Shown here: positions 3,970 through 27,178 of the stretch, in pieces
Layout of the letters: the number at the start of each line of letters is the position of its first letter
How positions within the stretch are numbered: the first letter of the stretch is position 1
Origin: Bacilli bacterium
Lineage (GTDB): Bacteria > Bacillota_I > Bacilli_A > RFN20 > CAG-826
Direction of reading: 5' to 3'
Assembly (NCBI GenBank): GCA_024696885.1
Contig: JAILGI010000038.1
Location: forward strand, 1 to 41,953
Length of the DNA stretch: 41,953 nt
The notes under the pieces: generated by a model
The model's input: the letters and a program-made list of their open reading frames with translations, nothing else
What the model was told of the DNA's origin: nothing
Databases searched by the model: none
Made by a program: the position numbers and the translations under genes

Positions 3970-4421
3970 TGAAAGTAATATTACTCAAAGATGTGAAGAA
4001 ACTTGGCAAGAAAGATCAAATTGTCAATGTTAGTGATGGCTACGCCACCAACTTCCTTTTTCCTAACCGCCTTGCTGTCGCTGAAAGCCAAAAATCAAAA
4101 GAAATCCTCAATAAACAACAAGAAGACGCTCGTATTTTAGAGGCAAATTTAAAAGCAAAAGCCTCAGAACTTGCCGAACAATTAAAATCATTAGAAGTCA
4201 CTTTCCCTGTTAAAGTAGGAAAAGACGGCAAATTATTCGGTAACGTTTCTTTAAAACAAGTCGAAGAAGCTATGCTTAATCAACATAACATTACAATTGA
4301 TAAGAGAAAATTTATTGATAAAGGACCGCTAGACGCCCTTGGATATCATCGCTTAAAAATCGAATTACACAAAGGTGTCGTGGGTGTTATCAATGTCCAT
4401 ATCGTTGAGGAGGGTAAATAA
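3969..4421 (+). CDS. rplI: 50S ribosomal protein L9
   Basis: [36 protein letters not shown]. Confidence 0.98.
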
Positions 4422-4423
4422 TT

Positions 4424-5920
4424 ATGGCTAAAAGAGTAAGAACTGACCTTCCTTATAATGCTGACGCAGAAAGAGCCGTTTTAGGTTCTGCCTTCTTAAC
4501 AAAAGAAGCACTTTATAGCGTGCTTTCCCGCTTAGATGAAGAAGATTTCTATGAAGGAAAACACCAAATTATCTATCGCGCTTTAGCGTCTTTGCAAAAG
4601 AAGAGCATCGCTGTTGATATCTTAACAGTTACAGAAGAACTCATTAATGCGAAAGAGATTGAAAACGTTGGTGGAGCAAAATATTTACAAGAATGCGCCG
4701 ACTCAATGGTGGCGATTTCATCCTTAGAATTCTATATGAATATCGTTAAAGACCAAGCGGTCTTAAGAAATCTTTTAATCAACCTTCGTGAAATCGATAA
4801 TCGTTATAAAACGGAAGAAATCGAAGATGTCGATAGTTTCATTGCCTCCGCTGAAGAACAAATCAAAGCGGCCACAGAAAAGAGAAGAATTTCCACCTTT
4901 AAATCCGCTGAAGAAGTGGCAAAAGTCGTGGCAATGTCCCTTCAAACACAACAAAAACTCGATGATGAAAACGTCACTGGTTTAACAACTGGTTATGACA
5001 ATATTAATAAATTAACTAATGGTTTCCAAAAAACAGAATTGACCATTATCGCCGCTCGTCCATCTGTTGGTAAAACCGCTCTAGCGCTTAACTTTGCTTA
5101 TAAAGCCGCCACTAGAAAACAAGTACCTGTTGCTATCTTCTCATTAGAAATGGCGTCTGAACTCTTAGTGAGACGTCTTGTCGCCGCGGATAGCAATGTT
5201 CCACTTCAACATATCAGCACCGGTACATTAAGTGGTCAAGAAAGAGCGAAAGTCGCTTCTGCTATTAAAACAATTTCCGCTGCACCAATTTATATCGATG
5301 ATTCTCCAGGCATTAAATTAATGGATATCATCGCTAAATCTCGTCAATTACAATCGCAACATCCGGATCTAGGATTAATCGTCGTCGATTATTTAGGCTT
5401 AATTACCACAGGTAATACTTCTAAAGGAAACGACTCCCGTCAAGAAGAAGTGAGAAAGATTTCCTTAGCCTTAAAAGGTTTAGCGAGAGACTTAAAAGTC
5501 CCTGTCGTTGTTCTTTCTCAATTATCTCGTGATGTTGAAAAACGTGATACTAAAAAACCAATGCTTTCTGACTTACGTGATTCTGGTTCTATTGAACAAG
5601 ACGCTGATGTCGTTATGCTCTTGTATCGTGAAGACTATTATAAGAACTCTAAGAAAGAAACAAGCGCTGGCAATAAGAAAATGGGCAAATTAACCCAAGC
5701 TGAAAGATTCGAAATGGTGAAAGCCGCCCAAGAAAAACAATTAGGCGAAGCTATGCCAGGCGATGCCTCATATATTGAAGTTAATATCGCTAAAAACAGA
5801 AACGGTCAAACCGGTACATGTGGTTTATTCTTCTATAAAGCATTTGGTCGTTTTGAACTTCCAAGCCCTGAATGGGAAGAACAAATGGCGAATATTCGCG
5901 CAGGTGAAGAAATCGACTAA
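4424..5920 (+). CDS. dnaB: Replicative DNA helicase
   Basis: LPYNADAERAVLGSAF; Walker A AARPSVGKTALALNFA; VVDYLGLI; SGSIEQDADVVMLLYRED. Confidence 0.98.
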   Translation: MAKRVRTDLPYNADAERAVLGSAFLTKEALYSVLSRLDEEDFYEGKHQIIYRALASLQKKSIAVDILTVTEELINAKEIENVGGAKYLQECADSMVAISSLEFYMNIVKDQAVLRNLLINLREIDNRYKTEEIEDVDSFIASAEEQIKAATEKRRISTFKSAEEVAKVVAMSLQTQQKLDDENVTGLTTGYDNINKLTNGFQKTELTIIAARPSVGKTALALNFAYKAATRKQVPVAIFSLEMASELLVRRLVAADSNVPLQHISTGTLSGQERAKVASAIKTISAAPIYIDDSPGIKLMDIIAKSRQLQSQHPDLGLIVVDYLGLITTGNTSKGNDSRQEEVRKISLALKGLARDLKVPVVVLSQLSRDVEKRDTKKPMLSDLRDSGSIEQDADVVMLLYREDYYKNSKKETSAGNKKMGKLTQAERFEMVKAAQEKQLGEAMPGDASYIEVNIAKNRNGQTGTCGLFFYKAFGRFELPSPEWEEQMANIRAGEEID

Positions 5921-5922
5921 TT

Positions 5923-6675
5923 ATGAAATTCAATATCATCAGTAGTGGTTCCAAAGGTAACGCCACGATTGTGAGATATAAAGAAACAAACATCCTCATT
6001 GATATGGGGATTTCTTTAACTCGTCTTGAAGATGGATTAAAGATGTTTAATCTCACTGTCAAAGATATCGACGCGGCTATCTTTACCCATGACCACGCTG
6101 ATCATATCTCCGGTTTAAAATTCCTTTCTCCCAAAATTCAATATGCACTAGAGGGAACTTTACCCACAAATAGCAATGTGGTTCATCTATTTGAACCATT
6201 TATCGTTAAAGATATTAAAATTACACCATTCCCAACTTCACACGATGCGAAAAACCCATGTGGATATATCCTAGAAGCGGGTAATGAAAAATTAACATAT
6301 GTTACAGATACCGGCTTTTTCCCAGAAGAAAGTGAAGAAATCGCTGAGAATCCCACATATTTAATTATCGAATCAAATCACGATATTAAAATGCTTTTGC
6401 ACACCAATAGGACATATGAATTGAAAGCAAGAATCATGTCTAACGTAGGACATTTATGCAACGAAGATTCCGCGATTGCGACAGTAAGATTAATTGGTGA
6501 TAGAACCAAAGAAATCTATTTAGCTCATTTATCCGAAGAAGCGAATACTCCCGAAGTCGCTTTATCCGCCTATTATAAAATCTTCAAACATTTCAATGTA
6601 AACATTGATGATTATCTATTAAAGTGCGCTAATCAATGGGAATGCACACTGGGAGGTAATCTCGATGAAGATTAA
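5923..6675 (+). CDS. walJ: MBL-fold metallo-hydrolase, WalJ/YycJ-like
   Basis: SSGSKGNATIV, THDHADHISGL, YVTDTGF, GHLCNEDSA. Confidence 0.9.
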   Translation: MKFNIISSGSKGNATIVRYKETNILIDMGISLTRLEDGLKMFNLTVKDIDAAIFTHDHADHISGLKFLSPKIQYALEGTLPTNSNVVHLFEPFIVKDIKITPFPTSHDAKNPCGYILEAGNEKLTYVTDTGFFPEESEEIAENPTYLIIESNHDIKMLLHTNRTYELKARIMSNVGHLCNEDSAIATVRLIGDRTKEIYLAHLSEEANTPEVALSAYYKIFKHFNVNIDDYLLKCANQWECTLGGNLDED

Positions 6676-7144
6676 GATTTATGCGATTGGTAAAATCAAA
6701 GAAGACTATCTTAAGATAGGCATTAATGAATATTTAAAGAAAATTAAACCCTATTCACAAATTGAAATTATCGAAGTTAATGATGAACCAATTTATGATG
6801 CGAGTAGTGAAAGTGAAATAGAGCAAGCCAAAGATAAAGAAGGTCAAAAAATCCTGCAATTAGTCAAAAGTGGTGAATACCTCATTGGCTTAGATTTAAA
6901 TAAAAAAGAATACACATCCCCCTTATTTTCTGAATATCTCAATAAAAAACTCGTCGATAATGGTGCTTCTATCTCCTTTGTCATCGGAGGTTCATATGGG
7001 TTAAGTGAAGCGTTAAAAAAACGCTGCAATGACTCCATATCTTTGTCGCAAATGACATTCCTTCATCAAATGACAAGATTAATATTACTTGAACAAATAT
7101 ACCGCGCTTTTAAAATATTAAGAAACGAAACATACCACAAATGA
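6665..7144 (+). CDS. rlmH: 23S rRNA (pseudouridine1915-N3)-methyltransferase
   Basis: MKIKIYAIGKIKEDYLKIGINEYLKKIKPY; FVIGGSYGLS; LSLSQMTFLHQMTRLILLEQIYRAFKI. Confidence 0.97.
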   Translation: MKIKIYAIGKIKEDYLKIGINEYLKKIKPYSQIEIIEVNDEPIYDASSESEIEQAKDKEGQKILQLVKSGEYLIGLDLNKKEYTSPLFSEYLNKKLVDNGASISFVIGGSYGLSEALKKRCNDSISLSQMTFLHQMTRLILLEQIYRAFKILRNETYHK

Positions 7145-7479
7145 AACAGGAAGAATTTAAAGATTTAAAAGAACTAAAAGATGAACAAAACCCATTCTCT
7201 AATCTCTATGAATTAGAAAGTGGTGATACCTTTTATATGGAACCTGTTTTCTATACCCAATTAAAAGGTTTTAAAGATCATTATCCTGAGCAATACGCAC
7301 GTATTATTAAAGAGGTAATAGAGCTAGTGAAAAAGAACCATCGTGTCATTTTTACTGGTAACTATGAATGCCCCTTAACAAATAAAGAAGGATATATCTA
7401 TTTAGAAATAACGGATGTAACTGATCCATTAAAAATATTCGTGGAAGATAAAAGCCGCGGATCAGATTATGGAGATTAA
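7141..7479 (+). CDS. Hypothetical protein (112 aa)
   Basis: ORF overlapping the rlmH stop, co-oriented; ends just before a terminator. Confidence 0.65.
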   Translation: MKQEEFKDLKELKDEQNPFSNLYELESGDTFYMEPVFYTQLKGFKDHYPEQYARIIKEVIELVKKNHRVIFTGNYECPLTNKEGYIYLEITDVTDPLKIFVEDKSRGSDYGD

Positions 7480-7512
7480 AAAAATCGCACGTGTATGTGC
7501 GATTTATTTTTT
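7480..7512. terminator. Bidirectional intrinsic terminator
   Basis: AAATCGCAC-GTGTAT-GTGCGATTT (7482-7505), flanked by A- and T-runs between convergent genes. Confidence 0.85.
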
Positions 7513-8554
7513 AATATTGAGGTCTCAATTGTCTCATCGATAACCACATGATTCTCAAGCCCGCGAGAGCGATGAATAACATTTGGGCGAAGGATGATAA
7601 GAGGAATCCTAATAAGAGAGATAATAACGCTGGTGATAAGATAGCCCACCAAACGATTTTTTCACAATCGATGAACTTGAGGTAATTGAACATATTGTTT
7701 TTGCCTCTTGTCATGATGAAGACTAATAATCCAAGAAGGAGTGCTAAACCAGCATAGATACCCCAGAAGAGGAAGGTAGAAACTCTAGTGTTGAAACTCT
7801 TTTGGGTTAAATAGGCCTTATTATAATAGCCTTTCCAAACTTTTAAGACGCTATCAACATATTCTTGTTTGTTGAGTTGAGCGGCGCCATCAGGTAAGGA
7901 TTCAGCGATTAATTTTGTACCCACATCAATGTGCTTCCAGTCTGCGGAGAAAGCAGTATATGTTCCTGAACCAGCTTCTGTAGAATTGTTTTTATTAATT
8001 CTAGTGTAAACACCTTTACTATGAAGGGCGATGAATGATGGAGCGTATCCGCTTTCTTCTTCGCCAGGTGCTTCTGTGGAAGAACCCAATTTATAGGATT
8101 GCTTTTCAATATTACCAATCCATTCTTTATAAGAAGCGGAATCAATCTTGGTCGCGGAATAATAGATTTCTAAATCGATTTGATTGGTTTCGGAATTAAT
8201 GACTTGATAAACTGGCTTTTCATCATCGTAATTTGCCACCGGAACTTCTGTGCCATTTTCGGTATATGCTAAATAGGCACCTTCTTTGACTTCAAAGTCC
8301 TTTTTGGCTTCGTTTAATTTGACACAAGCTGTCGCTAAACTTTGATCAAAGCCATAGATGTTGCTGCTTAAGAAAGAAGAACCATAACTATTAGCTTGTC
8401 CAACAGTAATAGGAATAACAGGAATAAAAGAAGCGATAACAAAAATAATAAGGGCAACCCACCATGGGTGTGTTTTCGCACCATCGATGACGCGGTCATT
8501 GCTGACTAATCCCCCGAATAAACTTAATAAGAAATTCTTAGTTCTTGGTTTCAT
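7511..8554 (-). CDS. Multipass membrane protein with large extracytoplasmic loop, unknown function (possibly DUF1189-like)
   Basis: TM near N-terminus, ~190-aa soluble loop, C-terminal TM cluster; SD-like GTGAGG upstream of ATG. Confidence 0.7.
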   Translation of the reverse strand: MKPRTKNFLLSLFGGLVSNDRVIDGAKTHPWWVALIIFVIASFIPVIPITVGQANSYGSSFLSSNIYGFDQSLATACVKLNEAKKDFEVKEGAYLAYTENGTEVPVANYDDEKPVYQVINSETNQIDLEIYYSATKIDSASYKEWIGNIEKQSYKLGSSTEAPGEEESGYAPSFIALHSKGVYTRINKNNSTEAGSGTYTAFSADWKHIDVGTKLIAESLPDGAAQLNKQEYVDSVLKVWKGYYNKAYLTQKSFNTRVSTFLFWGIYAGLALLLGLLVFIMTRGKNNMFNYLKFIDCEKIVWWAILSPALLSLLLGFLLSSFAQMLFIALAGLRIMWLSMRQLRPQY

Positions 8555-8684
8555 TTGAATACCTCACTTTGCTTGTATATTGTATGGTATAAGGTTCTAT
8601 TTTACAAATAGATTTTTATAAGGGTCTAATATTCGTTGATTTTCTTTTGCTTTTTGATAGAATTATTCCGCAAATAGCACAAGT

Positions 8685-9081
8685 GGGGTCGTACTGGTTT
8701 CGACAGGGATGTGCTAGGCTCTAACTGCAGCCGGTTGGTCACCGTGATAACCAAAAGAAAAATAACTGACAACAGTTATATGAGAGCTCCTAGAGCTCAA
8801 TCACTCTGCTTAGCTTAATTTAAGCACTCGACATAGAGTTCCGACGCTACGCGCCGGGCAGAGCATCCTCCAGGGTTTTAGCCTTTCACGCCTGGTCAGG
8901 GTGTCATACCAAAAGGATAATTATTGTTTGAAGGCAAATGGAACAATAATGAAATTAGAATTAGCCTCGCATGTGAAGTGAGTCGATATACAAAGCATGT
9001 TAAATAAAAATATCGTCTAAGCTGTAGACGTTATTGAAGAGCCATCTTTGGACAGGAGTTCAATTCTCCTCGGCTCCACCA
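8685..9081 (+). ncRNA. ssrA: tmRNA (transfer-messenger RNA)
   Basis: 5' GGGGTCGTACTGGTTTCGACAGGG; 3' GGACAGGAGTTCAATTCTCCTCGGCTCCACCA; acceptor stem GGGGUCG/CGGCUCC with G3-U70; open tag frame. Confidence 0.95.
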
Positions 9082-9087
9082 AAATAA

Positions 9088-9679
9088 TGAAACTTCCCCC
9101 AAAATTTTGCCCAAATCAGGGTAAAATGGAAGGGGGTTTTATTTATGCCAGACAATACTCTTAAATACACCCGAGCGGAAAAACTCAAAATCGTCAAAGA
9201 ACATGTTGATGATGGTTTGTAATACGATGAATTATCAAAAAAATATGGTTTGGCAACTTCTACAATCAAATATCAAGTTCGCTTATATTTAGCGCATGGC
9301 GATTCCATCTCACTAGCGATATTGCAAAGCGATATGGGATGGCAATATCAAATGCAAAAATATCATGACAAATTGGAAGAATTAAAGATAATTCAATCAA
9401 TGTCTAGAAAAGGAAATTGCTTAGATAACTCTCCAACTGAGAACTTCTTTGGGCGAATGAAAGAAGAAATGTTTTATGGTAAAGAGCATTTATATAAAAC
9501 TATATCGCAGCTTGAGGAAGCAATTATTCGATACATCGAATATTACAATAAAAAAAGAATTGTTGTTAAACTAGGTATGAGTCCATATCGATACCGATTA
9601 TCTTTACAAAATAATTGTAATCTAGTTTAATGTAGGCAAGAGTTAATACCCATTGGGCAAAAGAAATGGGGAAGGTACA
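9088..9679 (+). mobile_element. Internally deleted IS3-family (IS150-like) element with degenerate terminal inverted repeats
   Basis: Left end TGAAACTTCCCCCAAAATTTTGCCCAA; right end (minus) TGTACCTTCCCCATTTCTTTTGCCCAA; transposase remnant inside; no clear target duplication. Confidence 0.72.
9145..9630 (+). pseudogene. IS3-family transposase remnant: OrfA-like HTH N-terminus with in-frame TAA, joined to OrfB C-terminus
   Basis: Same frame gives MPDNTLKYTRAEKLKIVKEHVDDGL*YDELSKKYGLATSTIKYQV...SDMGWQYQMQKYHDKL...IIQSMSRKGNCLDNSPTENFFGRMKEEMFYG...YYNKKRI; TAA at 9220-9222; central catalytic part missing. Confidence 0.88.
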
Positions 9680-9687
9680 AGAACCTT

Positions 9688-9714
9688 AAAAGCGGCGTAA
9701 GTCGCTTTTTTATT
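9688..9714 (+). terminator. Intrinsic terminator, plus strand
   Basis: AGCGGC-GTAA-GTCGCT followed by TTTTTTATTT. Confidence 0.8.
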
Positions 9715-9723
9715 TCTTAAACG

Positions 9724-12064: not shown

Positions 12065-13633
12065 ATGACAGTTTATTCAGGTCAAATATTAAGCGTAAAC
12101 GCAAATGATGATGTATTTAAATATCTCGTCGAAGATAAGGGAAAAATCGTTTTCGTGGGAAATGAGCTTCCTGAACAATATAAAAATGCAAAAGTCGTGG
12201 AATTAGGTGAAAAAGTTTTAACTCCTACATTCTGTGACTCCCATCAACACTTCGCCAGCTTCTCAATGTTCAACGCTGGACTTAACGTTATGGATTGTGA
12301 ATCTAACGAACAAATGATGGAAGAAATCAAAAAATTCGTCGCAAAAAGTAAGAATAAAACCCTTCTCGCTTTTGGTGCTTCCCCATATTCCGTTAAGGAA
12401 AGAGTGCTATTAAGTAGAGAACAATTAGATAAAGTATGTCCAAAGAAACCAATGATGATCGTTAAATACGATGGCCATGCTTGTATCGTTAACTCCGTCT
12501 TATTAAAGAAATTAGATAAAAAATTAAAACCTTTAAGAGGTTACCACCCAGATACCGGTGAAATGAATCAAGAAGCATTCTTTGTTGTTTCCGATTACAT
12601 TTCTAATTCCATTTCTGTCTTTGGTTTATTAAAACAAATGCAACAAGCCGCGGATTTCCAAGCTAAACGCGGTATTGGTTTAATTCACACCGTTTCCGGT
12701 GTCGGTTTCCCAATGAACCTCGATATTACGTTTGAAAAAATCTTTGGCAAATCCTTACAACGCGGTTTGCAATTAAGAGTTTTCTCTCAATCTTTAAATC
12801 CAAAGGTTGCTAAAAAACGTCACTTACCACGTATCGGTGGTTGTTTCGAATGCGCCTTAGATGGCTGCTTTGGTTCCCAAGATGCATCCATGAATGAACC
12901 ATATATCAATGATAAGAACAACTCTGGTGTCCTTTATTATTCCGATGAAAAGGTCACTAACTTCTTAAAGAAAGCCAATAGAATGGGTCTTCAAATTGAA
13001 ATGCATGCGATTGGTGATAAAGCCTTTGATCAAGCCACACGCTGTATGAAAGCCGCTCTTGATGATTTCCCAAGAGAGGATCATAGACATGGTATTATTC
13101 ATGACTGTTTACCAACGGAAGAAGGCATTAAGATTTGTAAGGATTACCACATTCAAATGCCTGTCCAAACCGCTTTTATCGGTTGGAAACAAGAACCAGA
13201 TGAATACTTAGAAGAAATCTTAGGTAAAGAAAGAGCCAATAGACTCAATCCATTAAGAACCTTCTTAAATAATAATATTATGATGTCCGCAGGTAGTGAT
13301 GGTCCATGTACCACACCTGATCCAATCGATTGGATTTATAAAGCCTGTAACCATTCCAATCCAAAAGAATCCTTAACCGCGAAAGAAGCATTAAGAATTT
13401 GTACCTATAATGGTTATTGGACAACATTTGATGAAAAAGAAAGAGGCAGCCTTGAAGTCGGTAAAATCGCCGATATGGTTATCCTTTCTAAAAACCCATA
13501 TGAAACACCAGTTAAAGAATTGAACACCATTAAAGTGGAACAAACATTCTTAGGTGGTGTCGCCTATCAAAATCAAAAACAATCCGTTTTGGGTATGATT
13601 TTTAGAGGCATATTCAACCATCACAAAGTGTAA
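12065..13633 (+). CDS. Amidohydrolase family protein (YtcJ-like, Amidohydro_3)
   Basis: CDSHQHF, VKYDGHACIVNS, EMHAIGDKAFDQA, SAGSDGPCTTPDP, GSLEVGKIADMVIL; no signal peptide. Confidence 0.88.
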   Translation: MTVYSGQILSVNANDDVFKYLVEDKGKIVFVGNELPEQYKNAKVVELGEKVLTPTFCDSHQHFASFSMFNAGLNVMDCESNEQMMEEIKKFVAKSKNKTLLAFGASPYSVKERVLLSREQLDKVCPKKPMMIVKYDGHACIVNSVLLKKLDKKLKPLRGYHPDTGEMNQEAFFVVSDYISNSISVFGLLKQMQQAADFQAKRGIGLIHTVSGVGFPMNLDITFEKIFGKSLQRGLQLRVFSQSLNPKVAKKRHLPRIGGCFECALDGCFGSQDASMNEPYINDKNNSGVLYYSDEKVTNFLKKANRMGLQIEMHAIGDKAFDQATRCMKAALDDFPREDHRHGIIHDCLPTEEGIKICKDYHIQMPVQTAFIGWKQEPDEYLEEILGKERANRLNPLRTFLNNNIMMSAGSDGPCTTPDPIDWIYKACNHSNPKESLTAKEALRICTYNGYWTTFDEKERGSLEVGKIADMVILSKNPYETPVKELNTIKVEQTFLGGVAYQNQKQSVLGMIFRGIFNHHKV

Positions 13634-13639
13634 TAAACA

Positions 13640-15406
13640 ATGGATAAAAACACCTTTCTTGTATTAAGAAACTATTTTAAGTACGGCCCTGATTCTTTAA
13701 GAAATGTCGCTAAAAAGACCGGCCTTTCTTTAGGCACGCTTTCTAAAGTTCATAAGCAACTATTAGAACAAAAGTTTATCGACACAAAAGGCATTACTGA
13801 ATTAGGAAAAAAAGCATTAGAACCATATCGTGTGAATAACGCAATTATTATGGCCGCTGGCATGTCCACAAGACTTGCCCCTTTATCCTTTGATAAACCC
13901 AAAGGATTATTTGAAATTAAAAATGAAATCTTAATCGAAAGGCAAATTAAACAACTCTTAGAAGCGGGTATTAAAGAAATCATTTTAGTGCTCGGTTATA
14001 AGAAAGAATCCTTCTTCTATTTAGGGGAAAAATATGGTGTCAAAATCATCATTAATTCCACCTATGAAACGAAAAATAACTGCGAAACACTATATTTAGC
14101 GCGTAATTTCTTCTCAAGAACTTATATCTGTTCATGCGATCAATATTTCATTAATAACCCATTCAATGAGTTTGAATATGAAACCTTCTATACATCCGTT
14201 TTAAATAAAACCGATGTTGTTGAGCCACGCGTATCTTTAGGTACAGGTAAACGCATTATAGGATTTAGAAGTAAGAAAAGTGGTCATATCCTTTTAGGCT
14301 TCTCCTTCTGGAACGAAGAGTTTTCTAAAGCATTTAAAAAGTTATTAGAGGATCATCACGACCTCGGCGATTTTGACCGTGATTTCTGGGAAAACGCATT
14401 TGCGAGAAACATCAATAGCTTACCCCCTATGTATATTGATGAAAGAGAAGTAGGCACCATCTTTGAATTTGATAACTTAAAACAATTACGCGACTTTGAT
14501 GAAAAATACATTGAACACACGACAAGCAAGATCATGCAAAATATCGCCAAAGTTTTAAGATGTAAAGAAGGCGACATTACTGACTTTGCTCCTATTCAAG
14601 AAGGATTAACCAATACTTCTTATACATTTATTGTTAAAGGCAAGAAATATGTCTATAGACATCCTGGTTTAGGAACCACTCAATTCATCAATCGTAAAAA
14701 TGAAGAAGAAGCATTAAAAATAGCCAAGAAAATAAACCTTGATCCATCATTCATTAAGATGAACGCTAAAGAGGGTTGGAAGATATCTTATTTCGTCCCT
14801 AACACAAGAGTGCCTGATTACCACAACTTTGAAGATAGCAAAATTGTAATTCGTAAAATGAAACAATTACATGATGCAAACATCAAGGTGGATTTCGCCT
14901 TTGAGCCATGGTACGACGCATTAAAATATGAAAAACATGTCAAAAAGACACAAGGTATCGATATGCCTGACTTTGAAAAATTAAAGAAGGATATCCATAA
15001 GATATATCAAAAAATCGATAAAGATGGCTTATATGAAAAGAGATTATGCCACTGCGATACCTATCAACCAAACTGGCTCATCAAAGAAGATGATGATGTT
15101 GTTTTGATTGACTGGGAATATTCCGGTTCAGCGGACCCAGGAGTGGATGTCGGTTATTTCATCGTGGATGCGATGTATGATTTTGATGAAGCAAAAAAAT
15201 TTATTAAAGAATATCTACAAGATAAATATTCATTAAAAGAAGAAGAACACTTCATGTCATATGTAGCGATTATCGCTTACTATTGGTTTGTTTGGGCCTT
15301 ATACAAACAATCAATCGGTTCCGTTATGGGTGAAGTTTTATATAATTGGTATTATATGGCGAAGAAATATGCGCAATACGCTTTGAGGACTTATCAATAT
15401 GAATAG
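13640..15406 (+). CDS. Trimodular fusion: winged-helix HTH + LicC-like CTP:phosphocholine cytidylyltransferase + LicA-like choline/ethanolamine kinase
   Basis: wHTH LRNVAKKTGLSLGTLSKVHKQLLEQKFID; NTase NAIIMAAGMSTRLAPLSFDKPKGL; kinase LCHCDTYQPNWLIKEDDDVVLIDWEYSGSADPGVDVGYF. Confidence 0.88.
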   Translation: MDKNTFLVLRNYFKYGPDSLRNVAKKTGLSLGTLSKVHKQLLEQKFIDTKGITELGKKALEPYRVNNAIIMAAGMSTRLAPLSFDKPKGLFEIKNEILIERQIKQLLEAGIKEIILVLGYKKESFFYLGEKYGVKIIINSTYETKNNCETLYLARNFFSRTYICSCDQYFINNPFNEFEYETFYTSVLNKTDVVEPRVSLGTGKRIIGFRSKKSGHILLGFSFWNEEFSKAFKKLLEDHHDLGDFDRDFWENAFARNINSLPPMYIDEREVGTIFEFDNLKQLRDFDEKYIEHTTSKIMQNIAKVLRCKEGDITDFAPIQEGLTNTSYTFIVKGKKYVYRHPGLGTTQFINRKNEEEALKIAKKINLDPSFIKMNAKEGWKISYFVPNTRVPDYHNFEDSKIVIRKMKQLHDANIKVDFAFEPWYDALKYEKHVKKTQGIDMPDFEKLKKDIHKIYQKIDKDGLYEKRLCHCDTYQPNWLIKEDDDVVLIDWEYSGSADPGVDVGYFIVDAMYDFDEAKKFIKEYLQDKYSLKEEEHFMSYVAIIAYYWFVWALYKQSIGSVMGEVLYNWYYMAKKYAQYALRTYQYE

Positions 15407-17279
15407 AGAATTGTTTAATCAATTAGTTGCACTAGAAAAAGAAAACAAATTAAATAAAGAACAATTAGAAGCCTTAGAACCATATCGCGTTAAAAGAGCT
15501 ATTATTATGGCTGCGGGTTTTGGTTCACGTATGATGCCTATTACTTTATTCACCCCAAAGCCATTAGTGACAGTCAACGGTGTACGTATCATCGAAACAT
15601 TAATTGAAAAAATCGTCAAAGTGGGTATCAAAGAAATCTATCTCGTAAGAGGTTATTTAAAACAACAATTTGATGTCTTATTAGAAAAATATCCTTTCAT
15701 TAAATTTATCGATAATGATGATTTTGATAAGGAAAACAATATATCAAGTGCGATTAGATTCGCTCATTTATTAGATAACACTTATGTTTGCGAAGCTGAT
15801 TTTGTGGTTCGCGGAGATGATGTTATCACTAAATATCAATATGAATCTAATTATCTAGGAACACCAGTCAAAGAGACTGACGATTGGTGTTATGACGTCG
15901 ATAGTAATGATGTTATCCATAATTATCGTAAAGGCGGTAAAGACTGTTACCAAGCCTTTGGTATTTCCTATTGGAATGAAAAAGATGGTGCATTCCTAGC
16001 TAAAAAGTTATTAGAAATGCACGAAGATAAAAAGAATCGTCAAGAATTCTGGGAAATGTGTTTCTTCTCCATTTATCAAAATGAATTTAACGTCCACGCA
16101 AGAGCGTGCGCTAAAGAATCTATTTTTGAAATTGATTCATTCGATGAATTATGCGCGGTGGATCCATCTCATAGATTAGGTGAAAGAAAGAGAATCGGTG
16201 TTGTAGGCGCTGGTAATATGGGCACCATATTAGCCACCAAGTTCTCCTTAAGCCATGATGTTGCTTTATATGACAACGTCGGTTCTATGAAAAACTGCGT
16301 TGATAACATCATGAATGTGAGAGATGAAGACAACAAGATTACTTATTCGGCAAAAATCAAAACCATTACATCTGATTTAAAAGAATTTGTTTCTTTATCT
16401 GATTATATTTTTATTACCTTCCCTTCCTTCCTTTTTAAAGGATTAGCCAAAGATTTAATTCCTTTATTACATGAAGGACAACATTTAATCTTTATCCCTG
16501 GTAGTGGAGGTGCGGAATTCTATTTTCATGAAGCTCTTAAAAAAGGCGTTACCATTTCTGGTTTACAAAGAGTGCACTGTGTCGCTCGTATATTAGAACC
16601 TGGTAAGTTAGTAAGAGAATCCGGCAAAAAATCACTCTTAAAAGTGGCGTCTATTCCATCTAGTTATAATCACACTGCCTCTATGCTCATTAATGAGTTA
16701 TTTGGTATTAAGGTTCATGAATTAGATAATTACTTAAATATCACCTTAATCAATAGTAATGCAGTGTTACATACATCTCGTTTATATAACCTCTTCCATG
16801 ACTATCATGAAGGAGTTTATTACAGTAAAAACCCATTATTTTACGAATCTTGGAATGATGAAACCTCTATTCTATTAGAGAAAATGGATAACGAATTAGC
16901 ATCCTTATTCCCCATGTTTGAAACCTATGGATTACCAGTGAAAGATATTCCCGGCATTCTCCCATATTATGATTCTGAAACCCCAGAACAAATGACAAGA
17001 AAGATTATTAGTATTGCAGGATTCAAAGGTTTATATTCCCCAATGAAAGAAGTGGAGCCAGGTAAATTCATTCCTGATTTCTCAAGTCGATACTTCACCG
17101 CGGACTTCCCATTTGGTTTAGATATCATCTTAGAGTTCTTAAGACTATTTGAAATGAAGAAAGATAACTGCGAAATGGTGTCATCTTGGTATAAGGAAAT
17201 GATTAAACCAGAATCAGTCTTCTCCTTCAAAGATTTCAACATTAATACAAAAGAAGAACTAATTAATCTTTATAAATAA
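15399..17279 (+). CDS. Bimodular fusion: LicC-like nucleotidyltransferase + NAD(P)-dependent octopine/nopaline-type (opine) dehydrogenase
   Basis: NTase RAIIMAAGFGSRMMPITLFTPKPLV; Rossmann KRIGVVGAGNMGTILATKFS; opine-DH-like helical domain (NSNAVLHTSRLYNLFHDYHEGVYYSKNPLFYESWNDETSILLEKMDNE). Confidence 0.83.
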   Translation: MNRELFNQLVALEKENKLNKEQLEALEPYRVKRAIIMAAGFGSRMMPITLFTPKPLVTVNGVRIIETLIEKIVKVGIKEIYLVRGYLKQQFDVLLEKYPFIKFIDNDDFDKENNISSAIRFAHLLDNTYVCEADFVVRGDDVITKYQYESNYLGTPVKETDDWCYDVDSNDVIHNYRKGGKDCYQAFGISYWNEKDGAFLAKKLLEMHEDKKNRQEFWEMCFFSIYQNEFNVHARACAKESIFEIDSFDELCAVDPSHRLGERKRIGVVGAGNMGTILATKFSLSHDVALYDNVGSMKNCVDNIMNVRDEDNKITYSAKIKTITSDLKEFVSLSDYIFITFPSFLFKGLAKDLIPLLHEGQHLIFIPGSGGAEFYFHEALKKGVTISGLQRVHCVARILEPGKLVRESGKKSLLKVASIPSSYNHTASMLINELFGIKVHELDNYLNITLINSNAVLHTSRLYNLFHDYHEGVYYSKNPLFYESWNDETSILLEKMDNELASLFPMFETYGLPVKDIPGILPYYDSETPEQMTRKIISIAGFKGLYSPMKEVEPGKFIPDFSSRYFTADFPFGLDIILEFLRLFEMKKDNCEMVSSWYKEMIKPESVFSFKDFNINTKEELINLYK

Positions 17280-17283
17280 ATAA

Positions 17284-17312
17284 AAAGCACAAGTTCATCA
17301 CTTGTGTTTTTT
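17284..17312. terminator. Bidirectional terminator overlapping the licD stop
   Basis: AAGCACAAG-TTCATCA-CTTGTGTTTTTT between convergent genes. Confidence 0.75.
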
Positions 17313-18146
17313 ACTCATATATTCTTTATAACCTTCGGTTAATGAGAATCCTTTGTTGTAATGGTGACCCACCTGCTGCTCAATAGGTGGCAGTTTCATA
17401 TAATCGCCAAAGATACATGTGAGGTAATCATGATATCTTTTCATGACCCTGGCTTGCATGTCTTCAAATTGGACATAGACGAAGTCAGAGAAGATGTCGC
17501 TATCCATAGCCGCTCGTTTAAATGTGTAACCGAATAAATTACCGGATAAAGCGCATTCTTCCATCTTTAATTTCTTCGCGTATTTATCCATTCTCTTATT
17601 TCTAAAATGAGCAATGTCGAATAGGTAAGGAATAGCCACGGCAATATCAATCATAATGTCTTTAAACCATGTTTTCTTTTGTGGTTTTCGCATCAACGCG
17701 GGTAAATAGGAAAGATAGAATTGTCGCCAGATAAATTTGACTTTTTTTGCGCATTTCTCGCGTGGAATTGGCTCTTTGCTCATTCCATCAATCGGGAAAA
17801 TATCAATCCAAACACCGTGATTTATACGATGGTTTTTAAAGTGATCTTCAATAAACGTAGTGGAGGAATCTCTGAGCTTTGCGTATCCATATGTATAATG
17901 TGGATCTGATTTCCACCACTGAATGAAATATGGAGTTCCTTCATATTCTTTTTGAAGTGTTAAATACTTTTCATAATCTTCTCTAGGCATCATGACATCT
18001 ATATCATCATCCCAAGGAATGAAACCTTTATGTCTAATCGCACCTAAGCAAGAACCACCATTGAGAAAATATCTTAAATGGTGTTTTTCACAAACATCAT
18101 GAAAGGCTTTAAAGATAACTAATAATCTCGCTTGTAAATCATTCAT
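17298..18146 (-). CDS. LicD family phosphotransferase
   Basis: YFLNGGSCLGAIRHKGFIPWDDDIDVMMPREDYEKY; start placed at ATG 18146 (MNDLQARL) because the listed start is TTG. Confidence 0.92.
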   Translation of the reverse strand: MNDLQARLLVIFKAFHDVCEKHHLRYFLNGGSCLGAIRHKGFIPWDDDIDVMMPREDYEKYLTLQKEYEGTPYFIQWWKSDPHYTYGYAKLRDSSTTFIEDHFKNHRINHGVWIDIFPIDGMSKEPIPREKCAKKVKFIWRQFYLSYLPALMRKPQKKTWFKDIMIDIAVAIPYLFDIAHFRNKRMDKYAKKLKMEECALSGNLFGYTFKRAAMDSDIFSDFVYVQFEDMQARVMKRYHDYLTCIFGDYMKLPPIEQQVGHHYNKGFSLTEGYKEYMSKKHK

Positions 18147-18186
18147 ATCAATCAAATTATAAACAATTCTGAAAGCGTTTAAAACT

Positions 18187-23083: not shown

Positions 23084-23987
23084 CAAATTTTGAAATATCT
23101 AACCATTCGCCCATTTCAAAATCACACTTATCATCATCTAAGATTAATGTGCCTTTCGCTGGGGTAAATGTCATTTCGGAAAAATAAATTTTTCCGTTAA
23201 TGTTATATAGATCCACTCTCACGAATGGGAAAGGTTTAGAAAGAATCTCCGCCATCTCAACCATGTCAGACCAATGGTCTGGCTTTTTTAGTGGATAATC
23301 AGTCTTTTTCCAACCATTAAATTGACTGCCATCAAAGGGAGTCCAATCAATATAGTAGTTGTTATAACGAATATCTACTCCACGTGATGAGACAACATAC
23401 ATCGAACGTGCCTTGCCATTAAAGACGTGAATCTTATATTCAAGTGGTAAAGGTTGTCCTTCTTCCACTAAAAACTTCTCAATAATAATCTGTGGTTTAA
23501 TCTTCGCGTAATGTAACTCCACAGTCTTTTTACCATAGTTAGTTTTTAACCATTTATTAAATTTCTTTCTTAATTCTTCTTTATCGATCTTGCTCTTATC
23601 ACGACAAATATAATTAAAAGCGCAAGCGTGAGAACACTTCATTACGAATTGATCAGGAAGCTTATCAAAATCAATCTCATCAAAGGAGTTGTAAACACCA
23701 TAAATAGGGATTAATTTATCGCAAAACCCCTTTCTTTTTAAGTATTCTCTCACTCCCACTCGACCAGCGCACTGACTGACTAAAGGATCTTTTGGATAGA
23801 CAAATAAGCGTAGATATTGCAGCTTTTCTGTATATCTCACAGGGTTTTTCAAATTGAGTTTATGATGGGTAATGTATTTATATTGTGACTTTACATACCA
23901 TGTTTTATTTATAGCCTTAACCACATTACGGAACGGGGCTACAAAAAAACGTTTCACTTTATTTTCTTTAAGATTCGGATTCGGCAT
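23070..23987 (-). CDS. TupA-like ATP-grasp protein
   Basis: LPDQFVMKCSHACAFNYICRDKSKID...PQIIIEKFLVEEGQPLPLEYKIHVFNGKARSMYVVS...FPFVRVDLYNINGKIYFSEMTFTPAKG. Confidence 0.83.
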   Translation of the reverse strand: MPNPNLKENKVKRFFVAPFRNVVKAINKTWYVKSQYKYITHHKLNLKNPVRYTEKLQYLRLFVYPKDPLVSQCAGRVGVREYLKRKGFCDKLIPIYGVYNSFDEIDFDKLPDQFVMKCSHACAFNYICRDKSKIDKEELRKKFNKWLKTNYGKKTVELHYAKIKPQIIIEKFLVEEGQPLPLEYKIHVFNGKARSMYVVSSRGVDIRYNNYYIDWTPFDGSQFNGWKKTDYPLKKPDHWSDMVEMAEILSKPFPFVRVDLYNINGKIYFSEMTFTPAKGTLILDDDKCDFEMGEWLDISKFVNAK

Positions 23988-25497
23988 TTTTACGTTCTTC
24001 CTTTCTTTTTTTGGAAAAAGAATAAATTAAATCTTCCTTCAAAAGGAATAAGATTACTAAATAGATAATTCCCGCGATAGCGACAATAGCCACTAATTGA
24101 AGAGTGTAGGCTACTCCATCGGAGAGATTCATATTTTTCCATAAAGTCAATAATGGGTTGTAGATAAGTAAGGAAACACCTAATATCACCGCATTAGCAA
24201 TCAATAATTTAAGTGTATTCATATTAAACACTGTTTTTCTTGTCCATTTCCAAGTTAAAGCGAGTAAGAAAATGATAATCAACACATCGGTGGTTACTGT
24301 TCCAATAGCGACTCCTATCGCCGGTCTGTCTTTAAAGAGGAACATACCTAATCCAATTGATGCGCCAGCGTTAACTAAAGCCCCCACACTAATAGCGATG
24401 AGATAATATTTTTCCTTCTTCATTGGTAAAAGAATTTGTCCATAAATAATATCGCCTATGGAATATGTCGCCATCATCGCTGCTAAAATCATTAAAACGT
24501 ATGGAGCGTTATAGTAATCATCACCTTGCTGGAATGTATATGAGCCAGAAATAAGTCCACATATTGGTTTAGCTAAAACACACATTGTAACTATCGCTGG
24601 TAAAACAATAAACAAACAAATATTGATGGAATACTTATTTAAATTGTTGAAGAAACGCTTATCTTCTTTGGAGTAGTAATAAGCCGCTCTTGGAATAAAG
24701 ACGACTGATAAAGCGGTAATAATACCGATAATAATATCAACACCCTTAATACCAACGGAATAAGAAGCAACTTCGGTTTTGTCGCTATTAATGAAACCTA
24801 AAATAAAGGTATCGGTTTGATTATAAATGGATAAGACTAGTGATAAAGTACATAAAACAAGTAATTGTTTACTATATTGTTTTAAGTTATAAGGCATTGT
24901 TTTCTTAAAGGAAACAAATCTTCTTACATAGTAAACGTTAGCAATTGTGGTAATCACAGTGACCATAATCGCGATTAATGCATAAAGTAAAATATCATCA
25001 GGTGTGGTCACGAAAACAATGATTAAAATCGCAGATATGGTTAAGGCAACAATGCTACGCACCGCCATATAGAATTGTTTTTCTAAAGCGATGAATACCC
25101 ATTCAAAAGAGAAGGCACCCACTAAGAAGTTGAGTGAAAGAATGAATATAAGCGAATGTTGTTCTCTTAAAGCGGGTACAGAGAAAACAACCACACATAA
25201 TAAACCAAATGATAAAATGGTGCTGATTAATTGTAAGAGAAAGAAACCTTGTACTTTATTTGATAATTCTTCCTTGTTGTCTCTCACCTTAACGCATTCT
25301 CTAACCGCTAAGTTAGGAATACCAATCTTCGCTAAAATAAGGAAATAGGCAACAAAAGTATTAGCCCAAGTGTATGTTCCAACTGCGGAATCGCCTAAAT
25401 AACGGCAAACCCATGGAAACGTAATAAAAGAAAGCAAAGTCAAGACGACTGTGCGGATAATATTCACAATGACATTAATACGAATATTGTTCTTCAT
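23968..25497 (-). CDS. Polysaccharide flippase (Wzx-like, MOP superfamily)
   Basis: About 14 TM segments; N-terminal NIIRTVVLTLLSFITFPWVCRYLGDSAVGTYTWANTFVAYFLILAKIGIPNLAVRE. Confidence 0.92.
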   Translation of the reverse strand: MKNNIRINVIVNIIRTVVLTLLSFITFPWVCRYLGDSAVGTYTWANTFVAYFLILAKIGIPNLAVRECVKVRDNKEELSNKVQGFFLLQLISTILSFGLLCVVVFSVPALREQHSLIFILSLNFLVGAFSFEWVFIALEKQFYMAVRSIVALTISAILIIVFVTTPDDILLYALIAIMVTVITTIANVYYVRRFVSFKKTMPYNLKQYSKQLLVLCTLSLVLSIYNQTDTFILGFINSDKTEVASYSVGIKGVDIIIGIITALSVVFIPRAAYYYSKEDKRFFNNLNKYSINICLFIVLPAIVTMCVLAKPICGLISGSYTFQQGDDYYNAPYVLMILAAMMATYSIGDIIYGQILLPMKKEKYYLIAISVGALVNAGASIGLGMFLFKDRPAIGVAIGTVTTDVLIIIFLLALTWKWTRKTVFNMNTLKLLIANAVILGVSLLIYNPLLTLWKNMNLSDGVAYTLQLVAIVAIAGIIYLVILFLLKEDLIYSFSKKRKEERKNAESES

Positions 25498-26174
25498 CTC
25501 TTATTTATAATAGCCTCAAAAATATCTAAATCCGTTGGGGTGGTAATTTTAAAATTATATTTATCACCCTCAACGATATATACTTCATTTCCCATTGATT
25601 TAACTAAACCAGCGTCATCAGTGAATGATTCGCCTTGACGTAAGTTGTGGGCTTGGTAGATGAGATTAAATAAGAAACTTTGGGGAGTTTGACTTTGATA
25701 AATCTCATCTCTATTTAATGTATGATCAACAGTTTGATTATTCTTAGAAATAACAAGTGTATCGACAGCTTTACACGCTGTTTCAACTGCACCATATTTT
25801 TGGGTTAAATATATGTTATCCTCAATTATTTTTTGAGAAACTAGTGGTCTAGCAGCGTCATGAATCAAAACGATATCATCGTCTTTAACATTCTTTTCTT
25901 TTAAATACTTAAGTGCTAAGAATGTGGATTCTTGACGAGAATTACCACCGGCAATAACACCCACCATTTTTCTTAATGGATATTCCTTTAAGAAGGAACT
26001 AACCCTATCAACATCATTAGAAGGAACAACGAGAAGAATTTTATGAATTAATGGATGGAAATCAAAAGCCTCAAGTGAATAGACGAATAGTGGTTTTTCA
26101 TTTACCATGATAAATTGCTTTTGTTGGCCCATTCTTGTGCCACTTCCTGCGGCTAAAACGATTGCGATATTCAT
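25494..26174 (-). CDS. IspD/TarI-type cytidylyltransferase; TarI-like (ribitol-5-P) preferred
   Basis: VLAAGSGTRMGQQKQFIMVNEKPLFVYSLEAF; IHDAARPLVS; DEIYQSQTPQSF (TarI-like motif); FKITTPTDLDI; 1 nt from a licD-type gene. Confidence 0.8.
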   Translation of the reverse strand: MNIAIVLAAGSGTRMGQQKQFIMVNEKPLFVYSLEAFDFHPLIHKILLVVPSNDVDRVSSFLKEYPLRKMVGVIAGGNSRQESTFLALKYLKEKNVKDDDIVLIHDAARPLVSQKIIEDNIYLTQKYGAVETACKAVDTLVISKNNQTVDHTLNRDEIYQSQTPQSFLFNLIYQAHNLRQGESFTDDAGLVKSMGNEVYIVEGDKYNFKITTPTDLDIFEAIINKR

Positions 26175-26175
26175 A

Positions 26176-27066
26176 TTATTTCTTCTTTCTCGATAGGGAA
26201 TATTTCACTAAGTGCTTAAATTGTCTTTTTTCTTTTGGGAATGGATCATACCATTTTTCACCATCCCATTTTTTCATACCTTCTTCGCCATATCTCGTGC
26301 GACAGAATTCTTCAATGTTATTGAAGGAATATATCTTATGACCTTCAAAATCATATTCTTTAAACGGATAGATAATATCTTTTGGATAAACATCGGTGTG
26401 CGATGATAAGCCCCAATCCTGGAAAGGAATAATTGGGGTTTGTGAAACAAATTTGGAATCCTTATATTTCTCTGCGATTTTTCTTTCGTACTTTTTCAAA
26501 GATTTCTTAATAAGATGAGGATGAATTCTTAATAAAGAATCGAAGAATGTATATAAAGGCATTCTATTTTTCGCGTATTTTAAAATCTTTTTTCTTTCTT
26601 TTGGGTCCTCAGGTGTACCCACTAAAGCGATCACGTCAAGGAAGAAACCATCGCTGTTATGGCATCTATTAGGAAGAGTGTAAGAATTCTTTTCAAGCAA
26701 ATATGATTCTTTATAACGAATCTTAATAGTGGGGATTAATACGTTGTATCTCTTGTCTGTTTCATAGCTATCGAATGTGAACTCATCACTCAAATCTTTC
26801 TTTAAAGCCTCGATCAATCTAGGAAGATCAAAATAATCGATAGCAGCGTCAATATCATCATCCCAAGGAATGAAACCAGCGTAATTGTACGCGCCTAAAG
26901 CACTACCATATGCGATAGCGTAAGGAATGTTGTTCTTACGACAAACACGGTCTAATTCCAACAAAATCTTTAATAACAATTGGTGTAAGTCCTCAGTAGT
27001 GTGTTCCACTCCATCGAGATCTTTACCAATTGGATATGCTTCTTTTTCTAAAATGTAGTCAGACAT
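26176..27066 (-). CDS. LicD family phosphotransferase (second copy)
   Basis: IPYAIAYGSALGAYNYAGFIPWDDDIDAAIDYFDLPRL; start placed at MSDYILEKEAYP (27066). Confidence 0.9.
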   Translation of the reverse strand: MSDYILEKEAYPIGKDLDGVEHTTEDLHQLLLKILLELDRVCRKNNIPYAIAYGSALGAYNYAGFIPWDDDIDAAIDYFDLPRLIEALKKDLSDEFTFDSYETDKRYNVLIPTIKIRYKESYLLEKNSYTLPNRCHNSDGFFLDVIALVGTPEDPKERKKILKYAKNRMPLYTFFDSLLRIHPHLIKKSLKKYERKIAEKYKDSKFVSQTPIIPFQDWGLSSHTDVYPKDIIYPFKEYDFEGHKIYSFNNIEEFCRTRYGEEGMKKWDGEKWYDPFPKEKRQFKHLVKYSLSRKKK

Positions 27067-27178
27067 AGATATCAATATTAAAGCACAATCACGCAATAAT
27101 ATCTATCAATCGTAGATTATTTTCTATTAGCGAACGATTTATATCGCATGTGATGTTGATTCATCTTATACTAAAATC

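Follow-up and report, generated by a model that had tools for sequence, protein, structure and literature searches.

A nucleotidyltransferase–opine dehydrogenase fusion of an uncultured Bacilli bacterium as a candidate enzyme of phospho-opine surface decoration

In the 41,953-nucleotide stretch of Bacilli DNA that we analysed as a whole (the window), one gene joins a LicC-like nucleotidyltransferase (NTase) to an octopine/nopaline-type dehydrogenase, and we propose, giving the idea an even chance of being right, that its product is a bifunctional surface-tailoring enzyme that would form a phospho-opine from a phosphoamine and a 2-oxo acid and activate that compound with CMP for attachment by LicD. 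The fusion suggests a little-known acidic surface decoration in an uncultured gut bacterium. A preliminary description of the gene had named the two domains, reasoned that they catalyze consecutive steps on the way to a LicD, and envisaged either a reduced amine adduct or a polyol phosphate as the intermediate; the domains, the logic of consecutive steps and the LicD as the likely user were supported, whereas the branch through a polyol phosphate or DHAP was not.

The fusion gene and its two halves

The gene is a single open frame of 626 aa without an internal stop, in which both of the motifs first noticed, AAGFGSRMMP and VVGAGNMGT, are present; its start codon, preceded by a GAGGA motif, lies within an 8-nt overlap with the 3' end of the LicC-LicA gene upstream (Table 1). 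Our survey of the fusion across genomes yielded one further instance, in the MAG G008 (CAMOSS010000066.1), whose domain architecture is identical and whose identity to the host fusion is 69–72%; because of that second occurrence we do not consider the fusion a one-off assembly artefact, the covalent form being known from two genomes only, the host (G000) and G008. The dN was low (0.23–0.24) in both halves, with dS near saturation. In the scan of the genome contigs a single-sequence query gave nothing and an alignment-based query found the relatives; the viral contigs searched contained no match, and a literature search for a described NTase–opine dehydrogenase fusion found none.

Table 1. Features of the window discussed in the text
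Feature	Position	Strand	Remarks
Amidohydrolase (Amidohydro_3)	12065..13633	+	First in gene string; Pfam
Winged-helix + LicC-like nucleotidyltransferase + LicA-like choline/ethanolamine kinase	13640..15406	+	588 aa; upstream of the fusion gene, overlapping
Fusion gene, CTP-type nucleotidyltransferase + octopine/nopaline-type dehydrogenase	15399..17279	+	Residues ~31-255 and 264-626
Nucleotidyltransferase half (NTase2)	15459..16184	+	D134, E244 = LicC D107, E216; E132, E219 pocket
Opine-dehydrogenase half	16188..17276	+	GAGNMG Rossmann motif, H458-D569 dyad, R564, W485
LicD-family phosphotransferase	17298..18155	-	Probable end user; convergent, 18 bp past fusion gene
Flippase	23968-25497		Same block as second LicD
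IspD/TarI-like gene	25494-26174		Same block as second LicD
Second LicD-family gene	26176..27096	-	Alternative user; separate surface-polymer block

Profile searches and structure prediction recovered the two halves as LicC/PntC-type and opine-type, respectively. For the N-terminal half, the LicC-like designation was borne out by Pfam (NTP_transferase at residues 34–149, E 1.6e-10) and by the best solved relative of residues 29–250, the LicC of S. pneumoniae (1jyk, E 1.4e-19). In the alignment, NTase2 keeps the metal and CTP residues (GFGSRM, K, D134 and E244), but the phosphocholine pocket of LicC, with Asp at 105 and 192, is not present, since Glu occupies both positions: E132 and E219 fall, by alignment only, at Glu104 and Glu196 of PntC, which residues contact the primary amine. 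As judged from these positions, NTase2 is a LicC/PntC-type cytidylyltransferase with a PntC-like rather than a LicC-like pocket, and the predicted product is something other than plain phosphocholine, as had been anticipated. Within the full-length fold this half was modelled poorly, the alignment being shallow; folded alone, it reached a mean pLDDT of 86. A further pocket position, A[FY]G versus M[IV]G, was tried as a tracker of dehydrogenase presence and fails in G204, G052 and G099.

The C-terminal half contains the Octopine_DH helical domain (PF02317) at residues 442–601 (E 1.1e-19; 71.4 bits, the curated cut-off being 30), and the best solved relative of residues 306–577 is the octopine dehydrogenase 3c7a (E 7.7e-18). 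With the structure model of this half (pLDDT about 80–95), Foldseek placed octopine dehydrogenase (3c7d, 3iqd, 3c7a) and CENDH (1bg6) at the top, followed by the staphylopine, pseudopaline and yersinopine dehydrogenases, which matches confirm the type of dehydrogenase originally named. H458, D569 and R564 align with His212, Asp329 and Arg324 of the scallop octopine dehydrogenase (PmODH), and the catalytic His, Asp and Arg are invariant in the alignment of the dehydrogenase branch; catalytic residues are intact in both halves of the fusion. On sequence and model together, this half is a member of the octopine/nopaline-type family with a predicted activity of reductive condensation. An ordinary GpsA acting on DHAP was ruled out by the PF02317 domain, the opine fold and the presence of the host's genuine GpsA as a separate gene (G000:C57:3253-3675); the N-terminal part of this half has weak matches to NAD_Gly3P_dh_N and ApbA, and a Pfam search found PF07479, the C-terminal domain of GpsA, absent from the fusion protein. 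A separate GpsA is likewise encoded in G022, G215 and G448.

The dehydrogenase branch was initially supported as one clade at 94/97 in a tree that included one row containing a frame error, and that support drops to 43/80 once the distant rows G722 and G612 are added; monophyly is therefore no part of our argument.

Genomic context in the host and its relatives

In the host, a LicA-type kinase, a LicC-type transferase and a LicD share one locus, which gene string begins with an amidohydrolase that is conserved in G008, G022, G150, G220, G063, G070 and G018. The LicD gene, being convergent and on the opposite strand, is a neighbour and not a part of the same transcript; G164 (L073) shows the same face-to-face order of NTase2 and LicD and has its dehydrogenase in a gene of its own. 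The idea that a LicD would use the activated product is upheld as likely, the transfer by LicD itself being presumed. Of the four aromatic residues in the choline box of LicA, the LicA-like kinase retains three, and its preferred substrate, to judge by sequence, may be choline; the source of phosphoethanolamine in the host genome is accordingly uncertain. Phosphonate biosynthesis in the host was rejected, since the host genome contains no PhnS2-like importer and PEP mutase was found in none of the 10 genomes searched, the host (86% complete) included. A PLP-enzyme partner was not seen beside the host fusion gene.

The dehydrogenase branch was found in 11 genomes, in 10 of which it adjoins, or at least shares the genome with, a cytidylyltransferase. 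The arrangements are diverse: in G039 (L033) the dehydrogenase lies directly downstream of a PhnU2-like permease of the aminoethylphosphonate type fused to NTase2, the permease belonging to a PhnS2-PhnT2-PhnU2-like importer whose PhnS2 and PhnU2 matches are far under the curated cut-offs; at L043 and L044 it directly follows the gene for a fusion of an NTase with a CobD/HisC-like PLP enzyme; in G448 (L057) an operon reads TarF-NTase-PLP-dehydrogenase-LicD; in G215 it adjoins a LicD, the NTase-PLP fusion of this genome lying elsewhere; and in G722 (L115) a PLP enzyme accompanies it and a TagD-like cytidylyltransferase is in the same operon. Among the carriers of an NTase-PLP enzyme together with the dehydrogenase is a named isolate, Perlabentimonas gracilis M08_MB. 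In G164 and G022 the dehydrogenase and the NTase are on different contigs, and in the distant relative G612 no cytidylyltransferase lies near the dehydrogenase. All told, the linkage occurs in at least four architectures, among Bacilli, a Bacteroidota isolate and a MAG labelled Saccharibacteria. Within the order, NTase2 is present in 5 of the 6 dehydrogenase genomes and in 23 of the 279 genomes overall (Fisher test without correction for relatedness, p 1.4e-5). The reasoning that the fused enzymes act consecutively gains support from the fact that, in at least 10 genomes, the branch travels together with cytidylyltransferases, the order of the steps being presumed. The dehydrogenase matches in Burkholderia and Paraburkholderia were beside genes for a quinoprotein oxidase, a tyrosinase and a DUF692 protein, with no NTase.

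In four loci composed of the amidohydrolase, LicCA and NTase2 (G150, G063, G070 and G018), the dehydrogenase is replaced by an ornithine-cyclodeaminase (OCD)/mu-crystallin gene; the corresponding locus of G220 contains neither. The two genes occurred together in none of the 20 genomes searched, and one or the other reductase was present in 7 of 8 LicCA-linked versus 1 of 9 other NTase2 genomes (p 0.003). The OCD protein has its nearest solved relatives in pyrroline-2-carboxylate reductase and in entry 4m54, taken here to be SbnB. That a family of the imine-reductase type stands in for the dehydrogenase indicates the reduction of C=N rather than C=O, and this replacement, along with the opine-type domain and the GpsA elsewhere in the genome, leaves a polyol-phosphate product unsupported.

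The proposed pathway and its alternatives

In the pathway that we propose, the dehydrogenase half would join a phosphorylated primary amine to a 2-oxo acid in an NAD(P)H-dependent condensation. The amine would most likely be phosphoethanolamine (or, in the importer-linked relatives, 2-aminoethylphosphonate) and the acid most likely pyruvate, and the product would be an N-(carboxyalkyl)aminoethyl phosphate, or phospho-opine, of which N-[(R)-1-carboxyethyl]ethanolamine phosphate (R-Cet-EtnP) is an example. The N-terminal half would move CMP from CTP onto the phosphate of the phospho-opine, which LicD would then link to a surface glycan or a teichoic-acid-like polymer. The amine, the oxo acid, the reaction order and the LicD as user are all four what we infer. 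Agmatine, an amine without the carboxylate, is not a substrate of the known octopine dehydrogenase (PMC2924402), and a carboxylate-free phosphoamine would therefore need an altered amine site.

We regard as unlikely the reverse order, in which the NTase half would make CDP-ethanolamine (or CMP-aminoethylphosphonate) and the dehydrogenase half would then N-alkylate the activated amine. Within the order, genomes that have NTase2 but neither the dehydrogenase nor the OCD gene (e.g., G005, G204, G226) are common, and the basic product of NTase2 is therefore probably the unmodified activated amine; moreover, the pocket with E132/E219 and W163 looks suited to a small amine. Nevertheless, the clefts of known opine dehydrogenases accept amino acids and not nucleotides, and the CobD/HisC-type partner supplies free phosphoamine. 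That the amine is instead 2-aminoethylphosphonate, and that an N-carboxyalkyl aminoethylphosphonate is activated with CMP and attached to the surface, would agree with the importer and NTase2-fused permease preceding the dehydrogenase in G039 and with the Glu pair matching that of Tde-PntC; but the low scores of the G039 importer, the lack of PEP mutase and of a PhnS2-like importer described above, and the LicA-type kinase of the host, which enzyme implies a phosphate ester, make this version unlikely.

An accidental fusion to an ordinary LicC, the dehydrogenase making an unrelated opine (e.g., an osmolyte or a metallophore precursor) in a step not consecutive with the other, is suggested by the rarity of the covalent fusion, by the unlinked genes of G164 and G022 and by the surroundings of the G612 gene; we consider it improbable, given the recurrence of the linkage across architectures and phyla and the absence of metallophore-type neighbours, in contrast to L048. 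A reductase paired with a cytidylyltransferase is the logic of TarI/TarJ, and the C-terminal half might by analogy reduce a phosphorylated ketone or aldehyde, DHAP for instance, to an alcohol from which the NTase half would make a CDP-polyol, as in GpsA/TagD; this pairing, the weak matches to NAD_Gly3P_dh_N and ApbA, and the TagD-like transferase in the G722 operon are in its favour, yet the PF02317 domain with the opine-type His-Asp-Arg set, the opine dehydrogenases topping the structure search, the separate GpsA genes and the OCD/mu-crystallin gene used in the sister loci render it highly improbable.

Returning to the phospho-opine reading, we would extend it, tentatively and with more doubt than confidence, to a pathway class new to science, in which an opine dehydrogenase or an OCD/mu-crystallin protein would make CDP-activated phospho-opines from aminoalkyl phosph(on)ates, to be attached by LicD, TagF-like or CDP-alcohol transferases, in Bacilli, Bacteroidota and possibly Saccharibacteria, and which would also explain the R-Cet-EtnP of Proteus. 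If so, the dehydrogenase, its OCD replacement and the matching cytidylyltransferase would be candidate genes, for the Proteus group as well; a genomic marker for groups of this type in uncultured gut bacteria would be at hand; and opine chemistry would reach cell-envelope decoration, beyond energy metabolism, crown galls and metallophores.

Comparison with known systems

C-reactive protein, antibodies and host receptors bind surface phosphocholine and phosphoethanolamine, for which the Lic and Pnt biosynthesis is understood; carboxylated secondary-amine relatives such as R-Cet-EtnP have been observed by NMR for years, and we found no enzyme reported for such groups. R-Cet-EtnP is a listed component of the Proteus mirabilis O-polysaccharide (PMC9630907) and is the same compound as the product predicted here from phosphoethanolamine and pyruvate, including the usual stereochemistry of opine dehydrogenases, which are R-selective at the newly formed C-N bond (PMC10787698). 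R-Cet-EtnP is known as a chemical structure only, its link to the fusion gene being conjectural: no gene for R-Cet-EtnP biosynthesis was found reported in the searchable literature, and a survey paper on the Proteus O-antigens does not mention genes for that substituent. The dehydrogenase search gave a single Proteus match, which we rejected as a link because its surroundings, with receptor, cysteine-synthase-like and decarboxylase genes, are those of a siderophore-type cluster and not of an O-antigen locus; no Proteus O-antigen locus with this branch was found in the collection searched, which holds few Proteus chromosomes.

The PntC of Treponema denticola (Tde1415, PDB 6pd1/6pd2), an AEP cytidylyltransferase fused to an AEP transaminase (PMC6697681), resembles the fusion in joining a LicC-like cytidylyltransferase to an enzyme acting on an aminoalkyl phosph(on)ate and in the Glu pair at the amine end; it differs in that the partner is a PLP transaminase and not an opine dehydrogenase, in belonging to a PEP-mutase pathway, which the genomes tested here lack, and in a sequence match confined to the N-terminal ~110 residues. 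The LicC of S. pneumoniae (1jyk/1jyl) is the best sequence match to the NTase half, with metal and CTP residues conserved, but its phosphocholine-selective Asp pair is Glu here, where a dehydrogenase is fused as well. The octopine dehydrogenase of Pecten maximus (3c7a) and the Arthrobacter CENDH (1bg6) share the fold, the Rossmann motif, the His-Asp dyad and the NADH-sensing Arg, at only ~20% identity; here the genomic linkage is not to amino-acid metabolism but to CDP-activation and LicD, and a phosphoamine is the predicted amine partner. The staphylopine, pseudopaline and yersinopine dehydrogenases (6c4r, 6pbn, 6c4l) likewise perform opine chemistry within a biosynthetic pathway, but they belong to a different branch with a lower structural match, and neighbours of the nicotianamine-synthase type are absent here. 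Finally, the TarI/TarJ-type pairs also employ a reductase and a cytidylyltransferase in succession for a surface polymer, although the reductase family and the chemistry differ, C=O being reduced there and C=N, as we predict, here.

Structure and catalytic residues of the fusion protein

As the preliminary description had proposed, one uninterrupted ORF encodes a nucleotidyltransferase (NTase) followed by an opine-type dehydrogenase in a protein of 626 residues, whose gene starts 8 nt within the 3' end of the LicC-LicA gene. The NTase half (residues about 31–255) matches LicC (PDB 1jyk; E 1.4e-19) and Pfam NTP_transferase, and residues 264–626 match octopine dehydrogenase (PDB 3c7a; E 7.7e-18), with a Pfam Octopine_DH match well above the cut-off. 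Because an independent MAG (G008) carries the same fusion, with a dN of 0.23–0.24 in each half against a dS close to saturation, the fusion is real and under selection. The fused form was present in just 2 of the 279 genomes of the order—the host (G000) and G008—and a pattern-based, non-exhaustive scan of 84,980 species genomes returned G008 as the sole fusion.

The catalytic residues are intact in both halves. The NTase half belongs to the LicC/PntC cytidylyltransferase superfamily, and its D134 and E244 correspond to the metal/CTP residues D107 and E216 of LicC. The amine is contacted by Asp105/Asp192 in LicC and by Glu104/Glu196 in the Treponema denticola aminoethylphosphonate enzyme PntC (PMC6697681), which positions align with E132 and E219 of the fusion. 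Glu occupies both in close relatives—except in G005, with Asp at the second—and also where an NTase is joined to a PLP enzyme, whereas Ser stands at the first in the LicC domain encoded upstream, in LicC-LicA. Judged by homology, a small primary or secondary amine would fit the fusion's pocket better than choline.

Conserved in the dehydrogenase half are the GxGNxG motif and H458, D569, and R564, the first two residues aligning with the His212–Asp329 dyad and the third with Arg324 of the Pecten octopine dehydrogenase, for which enzyme His212, the NADH-sensing Arg324, and a His-Asp relay have been named (PMC2924402), the number Asp329 coming from our alignment. The whole-protein model had high confidence in this half, and its best structural matches were octopine dehydrogenase and CENDH, with metallophore opine dehydrogenases and ketopantoate reductases ranking lower. 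On all features examined—sequence, residues, and modelled fold—the protein belongs to the opine dehydrogenase family.

Genomic associations and replacement of the dehydrogenase

Searching with the dehydrogenase half alone brought up members of this branch in eleven genomes. The gene is fused to NTase2, the LicC/PntC-type cytidylyltransferase, in G000 and G008; in G039 (L033/L045) it lies directly downstream of a PhnS2-PhnT2-PhnU2-like importer, a putative 2-aminoethylphosphonate transporter with its permease joined to both a winged helix and NTase2. In Perlabentimonas gracilis (Bacteroidota; L044) and a MAG labelled Saccharibacteria (L043) the gene overlaps or abuts an NTase-PLP fusion, the PLP part being closest to threonine-phosphate decarboxylase CobD/HisC. 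An operon in G448 (L057) comprises TarF-like, NTase, HisC/CobD-like, dehydrogenase, and LicD genes; G722 (L115) has the dehydrogenase, a PLP enzyme and, from the other fold family, a TagD-like cytidylyltransferase, near a CDP-glycerol-transferase-like gene. The dehydrogenase adjoins LicD within a polysaccharide cluster in G215, with an NTase-PLP fusion on a separate contig; is near LicD in G022, with NTase2 elsewhere beside LicC-LicA; and stands separately in G164, where another contig has NTase2 facing LicD as in the window, without the fused domain. Only the most distant member (G612; E 1e-34) lacked such company near the gene. This recurrent company agrees with the consecutive dehydrogenase and CDP-activation steps envisaged earlier. 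NTase2 occurred in 5 of 6 dehydrogenase genomes versus 23 of 279 across the order (Fisher p 1.4e-5, uncorrected for relatedness).

The amidohydrolase–LicC-LicA–NTase2 string recurs across sister genomes, and in two of these (G063, G070) winged helix-LicC, LicA-type kinase, and NTase2 form one protein of 894–895 aa, which fusion assigns NTase2 and the kinase to one pathway. In sister genomes lacking the opine dehydrogenase, a gene of the ornithine-cyclodeaminase/mu-crystallin family (OCD) is usually there, adjoining NTase2 in G150, G063, and G018 (in the last as two pieces with a stop in between) and located elsewhere in G070; G220 has neither gene, and the two were together in none of the 20 genomes searched. 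The closest solved relatives of the OCD gene are a pyrroline-2-carboxylate reductase and entry 4m54, which we take to be SbnB. A reductase of either kind was found in 7 of 8 LicC-LicA-linked NTase2 genomes versus 1 of the 9 examined NTase2 genomes without this linkage (p 0.003). Since two unrelated NAD(P)H enzymes, both from C=N-reducing families, occupy one slot, the step would be C–N bond formation and not ketone reduction, for which conclusion this replacement is the best evidence in our analysis. That same replacement and the separately encoded ordinary GpsA of G000, G022, G215, and G448 speak against an ordinary GpsA, the reading that would have undone the preliminary description, and leave that description's polyol-phosphate option unsupported.

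Coordinates of the features in the window and in the loci compared
Locus	Position	Feature
Window	12065-13633	Amidohydro_3 amidohydrolase
Window	13640-15406 (+)	LicC-LicA
Window	13640-13840	Winged-helix N-terminus
Window	15399-17279 (+)	NTase-dehydrogenase fusion
Window	17298-18155 (-)	LicD
Window	23968-27096	Second block: flippase, IspD/TarI-like gene, further LicD
L033	1861-4425	Permease-NTase fusion
L035	9319-11871	Permease-NTase fusion
L096, L098-L104		Permease-NTase fusions
L048	204-9488	Proteus mirabilis siderophore-like cluster
L060	4023-9869	Fusobacterium vincentii NTase-PLP locus
L095 (G063)	3714-4505	CDP-alcohol phosphatidyltransferase
L095 (G063)	5420-8107	LicC-LicA-NTase2 fusion
L097 (G070)	6328-9012	LicC-LicA-NTase2 fusion
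L115 (G722)	8357-9715	TagD-like cytidylyltransferase fused to GFO/IDH/MocA oxidoreductase, in dehydrogenase-PLP operon

Other genes of the window and related loci

The amidohydrolase heads the LicC-LicA string in eight genomes, the host included, and may free the amine from an amide precursor. Winged-helix DNA-binding-like N-termini occur on LicC-LicA and NTase2 proteins (window, L095, L033), that of the window's fusion gene being shortened; the enzymes bearing them may double as regulators. The window's second block points to a separate CDP-activated surface polymer. In G063 the phosphatidyltransferase lies next to the OCD gene and the triple fusion, and there the activated compound may end up as the head group of a lipid instead of decorating a glycan.

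At least 10 genomes encode, beside PhnS2/PhnT2-like genes, a protein of about 850 aa in which a PhnU2-like ABC permease is fused to a winged helix and to a cytidylyltransferase of the LicC/PntC type; it is unusual for an importer permease to be joined to an enzyme that would activate the imported compound. The F. vincentii NTase-PLP fusion is 52% identical to that of Perlabentimonas, with LicD upstream and a DUF1015 gene after it, which gene could encode a kinase for the phosphorylated precursor. The P. mirabilis cluster groups an opine dehydrogenase with TonB receptor, cysteine-synthase-like, and PLP decarboxylase genes, its product probably being an opine/carboxylate metallophore.

Proposed pathway and comparison with known systems

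We propose that the dehydrogenase half would condense an aminoalkyl phosphate, whose source would vary with lineage (a LicA-type kinase, an importer, or a PLP enzyme of the CobD/HisC type), with a 2-oxo acid; that the NTase half would then use CTP to form a CDP-(N-carboxyalkyl)amino alcohol; and that LicD or another CDP-alcohol transferase would place the compound onto a surface polymer. The identities of the amine and the oxo acid, and the order of CMP transfer versus N-alkylation, are what we infer. Phosphoethanolamine and pyruvate would give N-[(R)-1-carboxyethyl]ethanolamine phosphate (R-Cet-EtnP), a listed component of Proteus mirabilis O-polysaccharide (PMC9630907), to which compound we found no gene assigned in the literature searched; known opine dehydrogenases yield the R configuration (PMC10787698). 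Agmatine, the decarboxylated amine, is no substrate of the scallop octopine dehydrogenase (PMC2924402), so that phosphoamine use would need an altered amine site.

The fusion is not to be filed as LicC, lacking as it does the Asp pair of the phosphocholine pocket, nor does its system constitute a complete Pnt phosphonate pathway, PEP mutase having been found in none of the ten genomes searched, the host (86% complete) included. The open-access papers searched made no mention of an opine dehydrogenase in Lic/Pnt-type pathways. The fusion's system would work like Lic/Pnt tailoring with an added opine step, and it stands a fair chance of representing a new class of pathway for surface substituents.
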